Shown piece after piece: positions 25,906-61,984 of a DNA stretch of 64,000 nucleotides (positions are counted from its first letter, which is position 1; every line of letters begins with the position of its first letter). The stretch comes from an uncultured Bacteroidota bacterium (GTDB lineage Bacteria; Bacteroidota; Bacteroidia; Chitinophagales; Chitinophagaceae), in the NCBI GenBank assembly GCA_903887005.1, contig CAISOH010000067.1, positions 1-64,000 of the forward strand. Direction: 5' to 3'. The translations under genes and the position numbers were made by a program. The notes under the pieces were generated by a model. It was not told the DNA's origin. It ran no database searches and saw only the letters and a program-made list of their open reading frames with translations.

Positions 25906-25910
25906 TTGAC

Positions 25911-26048
25911 AGTTGACAATTGGCAGTTAGCAGTTGCCCTGAAATTAGTTGGCAGTTTACAGTTGGCAGTACTGTAAAATTAGTTGGCAGTTGGCAATTT
26001 GCAGTCTGTCCGTAAACTGTCAACTGTAAACTGCCAACTGTCAACTGC
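25911..26048. repeat. Inverted heptanucleotide array between convergent genes
   Basis: cagttga/cagttgg-type units on the left, aactgtc/aactgcc-type units on the right; can fold into a long stem. Confidence 0.85.
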
Positions 26049-38873: not shown

Positions 38874-38876
38874 TTT

Positions 38877-38937
38877 AGTAGAAAGTATTTGGTAGATAGT
38901 AGTTAGTCCATAGTAGATAGTCATGAGTAGTGATACC
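38877..38937. repeat. Heptanucleotide array (tagNNag type), left arm of a long inverted repeat
   Basis: 38892-38920 is a perfect 29-nt inverted match to 39151-39179. Confidence 0.88.
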
Positions 38938-39005
38938 GGTTATCGTTGTTAAATTGTTTGATAGCAGCTATGAATTTTCCAGATGTGAAAATGCTGGCCG
39001 GATAA

Positions 39006-39038
39006 AGATTTGACAACTTTTGAGAAGTTGTCAAATCT
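39006..39038. repeat. Intergenic hairpin, family member 3
   Basis: AGATTTGACAACTT-ttgag-AAGTTGTCAAATCT: 14-bp perfect stem, 5-nt loop. Confidence 0.85.
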
Positions 39039-39126
39039 GCACAGGCGAAAGTGATAACATGTTGTCTTCTTTTTTGCAAATAGCGCCTATTTATTAATGA
39101 CCTTACGCTTTTTACAGACAGATTAA

Positions 39127-39196
39127 TAACTAACCACTATCTGCTAACCGCTATCTACTATGGACTAACTACTATCTACTAACTACTATCTACTTC
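39127..39196. repeat. Heptanucleotide array (tactatc/tactaac type), right arm
   Basis: 'tactatg gactaac tactatc tactaac tactatc' ending a few nt before ATG 39199. Confidence 0.88.
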
Positions 39197-51489: not shown

Positions 51490-51501
51490 TGTTTTCAAAA
51501 G

Positions 51502-51574
51502 TGGCTTCGTTGGGACTCGAACCCAAGACCCATACATTAAAAGTGTATTGCTCTACCAACTGAGCTACGAAACC
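51502..51574 (-). tRNA. tRNA-Lys(TTT)
   Basis: Cloverleaf: acceptor GGTTTCG/CGAAGCC, D-loop AGTTGGTAGA, anticodon loop CTTTTAA, T arm TTGGG-TTCGAGT-CCCAA. Confidence 0.95.
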
Positions 51575-51607
51575 ATAAAAAAAGAACTGTTATACTAAAA
51601 CTATTTT

Positions 51608-51672
51608 GACTCGAACCCAAAAGACCCTCCCGCTAAAGAAGCGGGATACTCTACCAACTGAGCTACGAAACC
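51608..51672 (-). pseudogene. 3'-truncated tRNA-Lys(CTT)-like copy
   Basis: ggtttcgtagctcagttggtagagtatcccgcttctttagcgggagggtcttttgggttcgagtc then unrelated aaaatag; no CCCAA or 3' acceptor strand. Confidence 0.85.
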
Positions 51673-51704
51673 ATAAAAAAAGAACTGCATTACTAAATTA
51701 TTTT

Positions 51705-51767
51705 GACTCGAACCCAAGACCCTCCCGCTAAAGAAGCGGGATGCTCTACCAACTGAGCTACAAAACC
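51705..51767 (-). pseudogene. 3'-truncated tRNA-Lys(CTT)-like copy
   Basis: ggttttgtagctcagttggtagagcatcccgcttctttagcgggagggtcttgggttcgagtc then aaaataat; same breakpoint as 51608..51672. Confidence 0.85.
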
Positions 51768-52004
51768 ATAAAATAAGAACTAAATATTTCCATCCACTTC
51801 CGTGTTTGGGAGTGCAAAGATACGCATCTATGGTTTTCCACAAAATCTTTTTAAAATAAAGTTGCCCAGACCTCTGAAAACCTTTACAGGCAATCATTTT
51901 AAAATATTTAAATAACTTAATTATCATGCAAAACCAAACTAATTAGCCTATAAAGGCAAAAGTTATTTACAGTCCATCTCTCTTTAGGGCGGGGGTGGCG
52001 GGGT

Positions 52005-56606: not shown

Positions 56607-57740
56607 CTACTTCCCAAATACAGCTTCCATCATCACCTTAGTAAAAGTATCCCAGGTATATTTCTTCTTTTCGTTAAGGATATTTTGGTGCAGGTCTGTG
56701 ATAGAGTTTGGCTGGTAAAATTTAAGAATAGCATCTGCGATAGATTTAGGATTGGGTTCGGCCACAAATCCCACTTTGCCATCTGGCACAACTTCTGCCA
56801 GCCCGCCCACATTGGTAACTACCATTGGTTTTTCAAAGTGGAAAGCGATTTGTGTAATACCGCTTTGCGTAGCGTGCTTGTATGGCTGCACCACCACATC
56901 TGCTGCGCTGAAATAATAGCGCACCTCGCTGTTGGGAATAAAGTCTGTTTTTAAATGGACTACTTTTTGCAGTTGGTGCTTTTCAATAATGCGGTTATTA
57001 TTAGCTTCTACGTCTTTATTATAGTATTCCCCTGCCGCTATCAGCTCTATACCCGCCTTCCTTATGCGTTCATCGGCCATTGCTTCCAGCAGCAGATCTA
57101 GGCCCTTGTATTCCCGTATGAAGCCAAAGAAGAGCATGTATTTTTTACTGGCGTCGAGTTGCAGTTTAGTGCAGGCTTCCTGCTTGCTCACGGCTTCATT
57201 ATAGCTGTCATAAATAGGGTGGGGGGTAAAGCAGGATGGTTTATCTGTAAAGGTTTTTACATCCTTCAATACATCCTTGCTCATGGTTACAAATGCATCC
57301 ACGGCCTTGATGAAATATTTGGTGAACTGAGCATCACCAGGCCGCTTCTCGTGCGGTATTATGTTATCAACTATGCAGAGTACACGGGTATGTTTATTCT
57401 TTTTTGCCTGCCGGAGTATGGTGCCAAAGGCCGGTCCCATAAAAGGCAGCCAGTATTTTACTATGATAAGGTCGTATTTCTCCTTGTTCATCGTTGTACC
57501 AACTTTCAGCCAGTTGAGCGGATTAACCGAATTGACAAATGTGCGTATGGTTAAACCCGCAGGTGAAGGTTCATCAGTGAATTGAGTTTTCCCCGGAAAT
57601 AAAAAAGAAGGGTATTGCAGGGAGAATGAGTAGATAACTACCTCATGCCCCTGTTCCTGCAATTGGTATGCAAGCCGTTCATTAAATGCGGCAAGCCCGC
57701 CACGCAATGGGTGCGCCGAACCAAGGATACCGATTTTCAT
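56607..57740 (-). CDS. Glycosyltransferase family 4-like protein
   Basis: GSAHPLRGGLAAFNERLAYQLQEQGHEVVIYS; LFFGFIREYKGLDLLLEAM; HATQSGITQIAFHFEKPMVVTNVGGLAEVV. Confidence 0.9.
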   Translation of the reverse strand: MKIGILGSAHPLRGGLAAFNERLAYQLQEQGHEVVIYSFSLQYPSFLFPGKTQFTDEPSPAGLTIRTFVNSVNPLNWLKVGTTMNKEKYDLIIVKYWLPFMGPAFGTILRQAKKNKHTRVLCIVDNIIPHEKRPGDAQFTKYFIKAVDAFVTMSKDVLKDVKTFTDKPSCFTPHPIYDSYNEAVSKQEACTKLQLDASKKYMLFFGFIREYKGLDLLLEAMADERIRKAGIELIAAGEYYNKDVEANNNRIIEKHQLQKVVHLKTDFIPNSEVRYYFSAADVVVQPYKHATQSGITQIAFHFEKPMVVTNVGGLAEVVPDGKVGFVAEPNPKSIADAILKFYQPNSITDLHQNILNEKKKYTWDTFTKVMMEAVFGK

Positions 57741-58435
57741 AAAAAAATTGTTTTAAAATCTTCCTGGGCACGGGTATAATCAGCGGGAATACCAATGTCA
57801 ATAAAATAACCTTCGCTTTTGAACCCATAAAATTTCTTTTCGTTCAAAAACCGCTCCAGATAATCTTTTTCAAATGAAAATTTTTCCGGCAACTTTTTTG
57901 CAAGGAAGGCGGCTCTGCTGACGATATAAACGCCTCCGTTTATGAGCCCTGTTTTCTGGTATTGTTTTTCTTCGAAAGAAGTAATCACTCCTTTTGCATT
58001 TGTATTTACCACGCCATATCTGTCGAAATCATGCATTTCTTTTAAGGCTAAAGTTGTCTCCGCATTATTAGCTAAATGAAATTTCAATTGCTCTTTAAGG
58101 TCCACCATAAACATGGTATCGCCGTTCAGCACGATTACATCGTCAGCTGCCGCTTCTTCTAAAGCTGCCTGAATACCCCCTCCGGTGCCCAATGGCTCGT
58201 CCTCTGTTATATAGTCCAGTTCAAAAAACAAGTCCTGAGTTTCAAGCCAGTCTGTAACTATCCGGTGCTTATAGCCCAATGACAAAATTACACGGGTGCA
58301 TTTCTGTCTGTTGAGGTATTCAAAAAGATGCGCCAGGAAAGGTTTGCCAGCCACCTGGGCCATGCACTTTGGATATGCGCCTATTACCCCCTGTAATCTT
58401 GTACCCAGCCCGCCTGCTAAGATTATACACTCCAT
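57737..58435 (-). CDS. Nucleotidyltransferase, HddC-like (heptose-1-phosphate nucleotidyltransferase)
   Basis: ECIILAGGLGTRLQGVIGAYPKCMAQVAGKPFLAHLFEYL; DVIVLNGDTMF. Confidence 0.85.
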   Translation of the reverse strand: MECIILAGGLGTRLQGVIGAYPKCMAQVAGKPFLAHLFEYLNRQKCTRVILSLGYKHRIVTDWLETQDLFFELDYITEDEPLGTGGGIQAALEEAAADDVIVLNGDTMFMVDLKEQLKFHLANNAETTLALKEMHDFDRYGVVNTNAKGVITSFEEKQYQKTGLINGGVYIVSRAAFLAKKLPEKFSFEKDYLERFLNEKKFYGFKSEGYFIDIGIPADYTRAQEDFKTIFL

Positions 58436-58438
58436 TTT

Positions 58439-58560
58439 GGTTAAAAGGTTAATTGGTTAAAGGGTTAAAAGGTTAATTGGTTAATTGGTTAAAGGGTTAA
58501 AGGGTTAAAGGGTTAAAGGGTTAATTGGTTAATTGGTTAAAAGGTTGAAAAGTTAATTGG
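58439..58560. repeat. Octanucleotide array TTAANNGG x15 immediately upstream of the hddC-like start
   Basis: 58441..58560 = exactly 15 consecutive 8-mers (ttaaaagg, ttaattgg, ttaaaggg; one ttgaaaag); ends a few nt before ATG at 58435. Confidence 0.97.
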
Positions 58561-58574
58561 CAAAAAAAAGGGAG

Positions 58575-58973
58575 TTAACCCGACATAGGTTTTGAAATAA
58601 TCATTTTTTTAAGCCAGGACATGTAGCCATTTAATATCTTCTCTAATGCCAGGGCTTTATTTCTGTATTCAGTTAATACTTCTTCTGAAATGTATTTGCA
58701 ATCGTAATCATCTATAATGTCATTTATTGTTTCATACAGGGAGCCTCTTGCCTGTATGCAAAAATGTAACTGGTCTTTATAAGTATATCTTCCATACCCT
58801 TCGGAAATATTGCTTCCAATCGAACGGCAAGCTCGTATTAATTGGTCTTCAAGACGATATTTTTCATTGGGTGGCAACGCTTTAACAAGTTCATAAATAG
58901 AAATCTTATACTTTCTTGCTGTTTGCCATACTTCAAGGTCCGTAAATGATTTATAAACTTTATCATTATCCAT
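58575..58973 (-). CDS. Four-helix bundle protein (23S rRNA intervening-sequence protein-like)
   Basis: FTDLEVWQTARKYKISIYELVKALPPNEKYRLEDQLIRACRSIGSNISEGYGR. Confidence 0.92.
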   Translation of the reverse strand: MDNDKVYKSFTDLEVWQTARKYKISIYELVKALPPNEKYRLEDQLIRACRSIGSNISEGYGRYTYKDQLHFCIQARGSLYETINDIIDDYDCKYISEEVLTEYRNKALALEKILNGYMSWLKKMIISKPMSG

Positions 58974-58975
58974 TT

Positions 58976-59063
58976 TTAACTAATTAACCCTTTAACCAAT
59001 TAACTTTTTAACCTTTTAACCAATTAAGCCATTGAGCCATTTCGAAATTAAGCCATTAAGTTA
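58976..59063. repeat. Octanucleotide array (TTAACCNN type), inverted relative to 58439..58560
   Basis: ttaactaa ttaaccct ttaaccaa ttaacttt ttaacctt ttaaccaa ttaagcca ...; 58984-59004 is a perfect 21-nt inverted match to 58448-58468. Confidence 0.9.
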
Positions 59064-60083
59064 AATGCTCCAGGTAAATAGCCCCCTTTCAGTAAACTGG
59101 TATGGACTAAAGTTGCCGCCAAAATGCTGCAATGCTTTTTTTACAGCATAACGTGTATTGGCAGGGCAATAAAACATCATAAAACCTCCGCCACCGGCGC
59201 CGGAAATTTTACCGCCGGTGGCTCCGGCTTTTAAAGCCGATTCATAAATCTCATCCATGGCGTCATTGGATATACCTTTAGCCATTTGTTTTTTGTATCG
59301 AAACCCAAAATCAAGTATCCCGCCAATCTCGTGAATATTCCCTTTCAGTAAAGCATCCTTCATCATCAGCGCCTGTTCTTTAAGATGGTGCATGGCGTCA
59401 ATGGACTTTTTGTTTTTGTCCTTTACATTTTGGCTCTGCGCTTCGATAATAGTGGATGATAACCGGCTGGTTGCAGTGAAATACAGCAGTAAATTATTTT
59501 CCAGTTCGTATAAATATTCATGCTTAATACGCAGTGGGTTTACGATCACCTTATTGTCTTTATAAAACTCCATGAAGTTCACTCCGCCAAAAGTAGCAGC
59601 GTATTGGTCCTGCTTTCCGCCTGCCATTGCCAGTTCTACTCTTTCTACATCATAAGCCATCTGGGCAATGTCATACTCACCAAGCGGCAGGTTCAGCCAT
59701 TCGCAAAAAACACCAATTATAGCTACCATAAGCGTAGAAGAACTGCCGAGCCCGGACCCGGCAGGCGCATCAACAACAGTTGTCAGTTTAAATCCTGACG
59801 GCACTGGTCCATACTTACGGACAATATGGTTATAAGCTCCTGTTGCCAGGTCCAGTATACCATCAATAGGGAGTTCCTCGCTTTTGTCATAAGATACGCT
59901 TTCATTTCTGTCGAGCGCTTCAATGATTATTTGTGGTGAATTTATTGGCTCAATGGTGGCATAAGCATAAAGAGAAATAGTCGCGTTCAATATAGCTCCG
60001 CCATATAAATCGCAATATGGGCTGACATCAGTTCCACCCCCGGCCAGGCCTATTCTTAATGGCGCTTTACTTCGGTAAATCAT
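59061..60083 (-). CDS. GHMP kinase, HddA-like (heptose-7-phosphate kinase)
   Basis: RSKAPLRIGLAGGGTDVSPYCDLYGG; DAPAGSGLGSSSTLMVA; GGKISGAGGGGFMMFY. Confidence 0.88.
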   Translation of the reverse strand: MIYRSKAPLRIGLAGGGTDVSPYCDLYGGAILNATISLYAYATIEPINSPQIIIEALDRNESVSYDKSEELPIDGILDLATGAYNHIVRKYGPVPSGFKLTTVVDAPAGSGLGSSSTLMVAIIGVFCEWLNLPLGEYDIAQMAYDVERVELAMAGGKQDQYAATFGGVNFMEFYKDNKVIVNPLRIKHEYLYELENNLLLYFTATSRLSSTIIEAQSQNVKDKNKKSIDAMHHLKEQALMMKDALLKGNIHEIGGILDFGFRYKKQMAKGISNDAMDEIYESALKAGATGGKISGAGGGGFMMFYCPANTRYAVKKALQHFGGNFSPYQFTERGLFTWSI

Positions 60084-61830: not shown

Positions 61831-61984
61831 CAATTTGGTAATTCGACAATACGACAATTTGGCAATGTGACAATTCGACAATTAACCTTTTGCCTAATTA
61901 ACCTTTTAACCCTTTAACTTTTTAAGCCATTAACCCTTTAACTAATTAACCCTTTAACTTTTTAACCAATCAACCATTTAACTT
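61831..61984. repeat. Two abutting octanucleotide arrays (CAATNNGN then TTAACCNN)
   Basis: caatttgg taattcga caatacga caatttgg caatgtga caattcga, then ttaacctt ttgcctaa ttaacctt ttaaccct ttaacttt ttaagcca ttaaccct ... up to the next gene. Confidence 0.9.

Follow-up and report, generated by a model that had tools for sequence, protein, structure and literature searches.

Background

Proteins of the IVP/S23 family have been described in 23S rRNA insertions for decades, and structures of the family have already been solved; to our knowledge, it has no known function. Arrays of tandem heptamers, for their part, have a long record in the literature as orphan repeats. In the 23S rRNA intervening sequence (IVS) of Coxiella, tandem GACAGAT heptamers precede the S23 open reading frame (ORF) in three or two copies depending on the strain, and the IVS ends in a 28-bp terminal inverted repeat (PMC4990558). 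CPR rRNA insertions contain IVP ORFs too (PMC11270868), and the homology between PF05635 and Avd has been noted (PMC10053308). Period-7 intergenic arrays, often located beside start codons, were described as TAACTGA repeats of Beggiatoaceae, Cyanobacteria and Bacteroidetes, with no mention of IVP (MacGregor 2015, PMC4679880). No publication linking IVP genes with matched inverted arrays was found in the open-access literature.

The window studied here is a stretch of 64,000 nucleotides from an uncultured Bacteroidota bacterium of the Chitinophagaceae (contig CAISOH010000067.1). We show herein that an octamer array in the leader of an hddC-like gene of this window forms one half of an inverted pair of arrays enclosing an IVP gene, and that IVP genes of many other genomes are flanked in the same way. 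Such units are probably mobile or selfish elements.

Results

An octamer array and its inverted partner enclose an IVP gene

The element fills the junction of two co-directional genes, hddA-like and hddC-like, and is made up as follows.

57737-58435, minus strand: hddC-like nucleotidyltransferase, downstream neighbour (PF00483; named from its best match, NF049965, at 226.7 bits, below the curated cut-off of 300)
58441-58560, minus strand: 3' arm of the IVP element, 15 octamers reading CCNNTTAA on the element sense strand; doubles as the hddC-like leader
58575-58973, minus strand: 23S_rRNA_IVP / S23 / TIGR02436 four-helix-bundle gene, 132 aa (profiles, AlphaFold2, Foldseek)
58976-59041, minus strand: 5' arm of the IVP element, octamers of the same family in the orientation opposite to 58441-58560
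59061-60083, minus strand: hddA-like GHMP kinase, upstream neighbour (PF00288/PF08544; named from its best match, NF049969, at 400.8 bits, below the curated cut-off of 600)

Fifteen back-to-back octamers fill the 3' arm, namely fourteen copies of TTAANNGG and one ttgaaaag at 58545-58552; NN in the former is AA, TT or AG, and the units are imperfect and mixed. Tandem Repeats Finder gave the array a score of 125-164. Because the pattern (TTAANNGG)x3 with at most one mismatch was matched 18 times in the window versus 0.00 expected in shuffles, chance is ruled out. On the minus strand the array end reads CCTTTTAACC AAA ATG, into the hddC-like ORF, the ATG of which lies 5 nt beyond the last unit. 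An earlier, sequence-only reading of this DNA was thus right to describe an exact 15 x 8-bp array with one variant unit, placed within the hddC-like leader a few bases from the start codon. The array is not a stand-alone leader, however, and the reading overlooked the adjoining IVP gene and inverted array. The 5' arm fades into degenerate AATGGCTT octamers, to ~59060, and the two arms align with each other at a score of 76. Genome-wide, the same 24-mer pattern has 64 + 52 matches, in dispersed arrays.

The enclosed protein is a clear member of its family (106 bits against a cut-off of 33.8 for PF05635, and 99.5 against 24 for TIGR02436). Its AlphaFold2 model (pLDDT 92) has four helices, and Foldseek matched it to 2gsc (E 7.6e-7) and 2rld (E 1.5e-4), followed by Avd of diversity-generating retroelements (4dwl/8ub7, TM ~0.7). 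The Avd profile itself did not match the window IVP, and reached only 26.4 bits against its 80-bit cut-off with the paralogue L021. No catalytic domain, whether recombinase, nuclease or other, was detected in IVP. A resident reverse transcriptase (RT) as an Avd-style partner was rejected; since no RVT_1 protein was detected in 9 of 17 IVP-rich genomes, RT is not a general partner of IVP. IVP is under purifying selection, with dN/dS values of 0.02-0.16 and dS often near saturation.

Matched inverted arms are common at IVP loci

All six PF05635 genes of this genome (G000) have matched inverted 7- or 8-bp flanking arrays, and the motifs of the six elements are AGTTGGC, TTAANNGG, AAAAATT-like, AATGGCTC, AATTCAA and GGCAAAA/GTGAAAA. 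In our own reading of the neighbour translations, several of these genes are embedded in operons, as where NADH dehydrogenase genes lie on both sides. Sampling of 100 genomes within the same bacterial family found PF05635 in 76. To score the arms, the upstream flank of each gene was aligned to the reverse complement of the downstream flank, with a pass threshold of at least 30. Among 96 family loci, own flank pairs had a median score of 34 versus 18 for mismatched pairs, and 57 of the 96 exceeded the 99th percentile of the mismatched pairs in inverted orientation versus only 9 in direct orientation. The association is not random: a score of at least 30 was reached by 67/96 family loci versus 3/467 control genes (other genes in two of the family genomes; p = 1.6e-59). 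The best flank periodicity of these loci was mostly 7, 14 or 8. With one locus per insertion site, ~58% of the combined set (111 site clusters) still pass; ~30% of family loci and half of the cross-phylum loci fall below the threshold.

Both neighbours are co-directional in 82 of 94 loci, and the arms stand a median of 3 bp away from the stop codon upstream and 5 bp away from the start codon that follows. In a scan of genome contigs, IVP loci turned up in Bacteroidota, Chloroflexota, Acidobacteriota, Cyanobacteria, Planctomycetota, Verrucomicrobiota, others and one archaeal bin, although single phylum labels may be wrong because many of these loci come from metagenome bins. In this cross-phylum set, 37 of 78 usable loci score at least 30; period 7 is the commonest among the flanks (86/156), with some of 8 and 9. 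Cyanobacterial arms are built of GGGAATA and GGGAACA heptamers. Plasmid IVPs have the same layout, as in Riemerella, where the element lies between an iron-sulfur assembly gene and sufB. No match to IVP was found in phage records.

Some single loci deserve mention. On two cyanobacterial plasmids (L355 and L357; NZ_CP112875.1 and NC_019429.1), IVP and its arrays lie between cas6 and cas4 of CRISPR operons. Flanks of period 9, not 7 or 8, occur at L246, L276 and L285 (Muribaculaceae and Anaerolineales bins), and two to three IVP genes are clustered within a few kb at G166:C6:16526-20640 and G045:C65:2895-4061.

The arms change together, and with the protein

The two arms of an element evolve in concert. 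In 89 same-site pairs, an element's own two arms matched each other with a mean score of 40.8 versus 22.4 for the same arm between species, and the within-element match beat the between-species match in 83 of the 89, the pairs not being independent of one another.

Repeat period and motif are, moreover, coupled to the IVP clade. The period requires 13 changes on an IVP tree (a quick FastTree tree), versus a minimum of 28 when shuffled. At non-homologous sites, the motif matched in 1-4% of pairs below 45% IVP identity, in 22% at 55-70% and in 57% above 70%, this last class consisting of 7 pairs only. Within the clade of the window IVP (50-80% identity, several different sites), the octamers GTTRANNN are kept, as GTTAANNG or GTTGANNN. 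A Mantel test over all non-homologous pairs gave a weak correlation (rho 0.08; 34 of 500 permutations as high). The link between motif and protein is visible only among close relatives, and in the repeat period.

Solo arrays and IVP-less hairpins

Arrays also occur apart from IVP genes, and the window holds the following.

25906-26048, no strand assigned: IVP-less hairpin of AGTTGGC/AGTTGAC heptamers, the motif of IVP element L021 of this genome
35380-35413, no strand assigned: solo array of AAAGTCA heptamers, which resemble the motif of IVP elements L025/L026 of this genome
38875-39194, no strand assigned: IVP-less inverted pair of TAGTAGT/ACTATCT heptamers, ~290 bp enclosed, without IVP remnant
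61882-61982, minus strand: solo array of the same octamer family as the window element, without IVP gene (Tandem Repeats Finder, pattern search)

In G000 (264 kb) and G005 (400 kb), strict tandem arrays are nearly all of period 7 or 8. Counts of solo arrays rest on genome samples: 1 was seen in 380 kb of IVP-negative genomes, and just 5 in 400 kb of other IVP-rich genomes. Because solo arrays are rare in most of the IVP-rich genomes sampled, the presence of IVP alone does not drive array proliferation. The match between solo arrays and cognate IVP flanks was computed for G000 only, where 16 solo arrays scored a mean of 53.8 against the genome's own IVP flanks, versus 23.7 (maximum 31.6) when sets of six IVPs were drawn at random from other genomes. 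The result demonstrates a common pool of motifs, but no order of origin. The IVP-less hairpins have arm motifs in common and unrelated loops, and no convincing IVP remnants were found within them.

Other repeats were also seen. The array at 39129-39194, which belongs to the inverted pair at 38875-39194, is with a score of 20 the sole one of the 16 that does not match the IVP flanks of its own genome. At 61832-61882, octamers of a second family, AATTCGAC / AATTTGGC, directly adjoin a TTAACC octamer array. Elsewhere in the window, two tRNA-Lys genes (anticodons TTT and CTT) lie at 51501-51768, in DNA that Tandem Repeats Finder reported as a 95-bp tandem repeat (51549-51781). Same-genome Y1_Tnp (RAYT) genes at L330 and L338-L341 belong to a distinct repeat system, their flanks being inverted REP palindromes of the ordinary kind.

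Occupied and empty sites

The hddA-hddC junction is empty in one genome of the same genus (G271), where it measures 9 bp and has no array. In another (G099) it is occupied, with shorter arrays of ~4 units versus 15 in the window, and in other relatives it holds heptamer arrays on their own or an IVP-less hairpin of 101 bp. Two Flavobacteriales loci have 87.5%-identical IVPs next to the same fadB-like gene, on one side of it in L225 and on the other in L233, and apart from that shared gene the DNA similarity around IVP is limited to the element. Movement in cases of this type would be accounted for alike by transposition, horizontal transfer or rearrangement. It is rare, because 28 of 39 pairs of IVPs at least 75% identical share both neighbours and so occupy the same site; 10 have no homologous neighbour. 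No target-site duplication was established at IVP elements. In two near-identical plasmid pairs, the IVP flanks are identical, with no difference in copy number.

Discussion

The window array is the 3' arm of a small unit that consists of a tandem array of 7-9 bp, an IVP gene and a matching, inverted array. This unit is probably a mobile or selfish element with arrays as its ends, of which the 23S rRNA intervening sequence would be a special case. IVP, an Avd-like four-helix bundle, would recognize the array as DNA or RNA, and would maintain or spread the arrays; the unit as a whole may transpose. In some genomes the arrays also multiply in the absence of the gene, giving solo arrays and hairpins, a relationship that resembles that of REPINs to RAYT. 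In a wider form, which we put forward tentatively, IVP/S23 could be the specificity factor of an unrecognized class of mobile elements with self-specified 7-9-mer arrays as ends; the 23S rRNA IVSs would then be the members of this class that reside in rRNA, and its gene-less derivatives would include many of the orphan heptamer arrays of Bacteroidota and Cyanobacteria.

The alternative that survives best, though it is rather unlikely, is an intervening sequence of mRNA. The arms would pair in the operon transcript and RNase III would cut the stem, freeing the IVP message and splitting the operon, while selection on RNA pairing would hold the arms matched. The protein family and the layout are indeed those of the 23S rRNA IVS, whose 28-bp terminal stem is cut by RNase III (PMC4990558), and the element RNA folds as one long array stem (z -4.5). 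The co-directional placement in operons (82/94) is in line with such processing, but could equally mean the survival of insertions. Under RNA-stem selection, an excess of G.U over A.C is expected among the arm mismatches. None was seen in a comparison of limited power (66:57 and 29:37), so there is no sign that sense-RNA pairing keeps the arms matched, and we rejected selection of this kind.

It is distinctly improbable that the arrays grew neutrally, with replication slippage and quasi-palindrome template switching building and homogenizing inverted arrays at gene junctions and IVP as a passenger. Concerted arm change without RNA-strand bias, and IVP-less hairpins with common arm motifs and unrelated loops, are what such growth would leave behind. 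It does not explain, however, why matched arms are enriched at IVP genes (67/96 versus 3/467), why period and motif track the IVP tree, or why arrays are nearly absent from the sampled IVP-negative genomes (1 in 380 kb).

The sequence-only reading had proposed a candidate phase-variable leader, ahead of a gene that would affect surface glycans, in which octamer slippage would alter the hddC leader and tune a sugar-nucleotide gene. The array does end 5 nt before the ATG, and unit number varies between species, and between Coxiella strains in the case of the IVS heptamers. Nonetheless, the array belongs to an inverted pair that encloses IVP; a leader of this kind leaves the partner array and the IVP gene unexplained, and the same layout surrounds IVP genes beside the unrelated nuo, emr, cas and suf, while the hddA-hddC junction of G271 does without an array. 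In addition, the units are imperfect, mixing AA, TT and AG, and the near-identical plasmid pairs lack variation. We consider the proposal very improbable. Finally, that the arrays are REP-like elements mobilized by RAYT (Y1_Tnp) transposases, with IVP incidental, is hardly credible: G000 has 10 Y1_Tnp matches and many arrays, but the same-genome Y1_Tnp flanks are ordinary palindromic REPs (9/22 inverted) with no 7/8-bp periodicity, on which ground RAYT was rejected as the mover, and array-rich G005 has only 2 Y1_Tnp matches.

Through their tight link, an uncharacterized protein family and a set of orphan repeats each gain a testable function, perhaps the binding of IVP to its own arms. IVP/S23 proteins are widespread, occurring in 76 of the 100 genomes sampled from this family of bacteria and in many phyla. 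As a matter of caution, such arrays should not be read singly as phase-variation leaders.

Comparison with known systems

The 23S rRNA IVSs of Leptospira and Coxiella share with the window element the S23p/IVP family, an ORF enclosed by stem-forming terminal inverted repeats, and a sense strand that lies in the host transcript. The window element differs in its place, between the protein-coding genes hddA and hddC rather than in a 23S rRNA gene. Elements of its type further differ in that both arms are tandem arrays, the motif changes from element to element, and cognate arrays are dispersed. A search of 20 cross-phylum IVP loci against Rfam gave no match.

The likeness to RAYT/REPIN systems is at the level of distribution: a small gene lies between inverted repeats, and hairpins lacking the gene are spread over the genome along with cognate repeats. 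The window gene is a PF05635 four-helix bundle, however, not a PF01797 Y1 HUH transposase; the ends of IVP elements are 7-9-mer arrays, not fixed palindromes, and same-genome RAYTs have REPs of their own. Avd of diversity-generating retroelements has its fold in common with IVP (Foldseek TM ~0.7), but no adjacent RT, template or variable repeat was seen at IVP. The cyanobacterial STRRs and TAACTGA arrays, finally, are likewise intergenic and of period 7, and the arms of cyanobacterial IVPs are such repeats; what sets the arrays of IVP elements apart is their association with a gene family and their pairing in inverted orientation.
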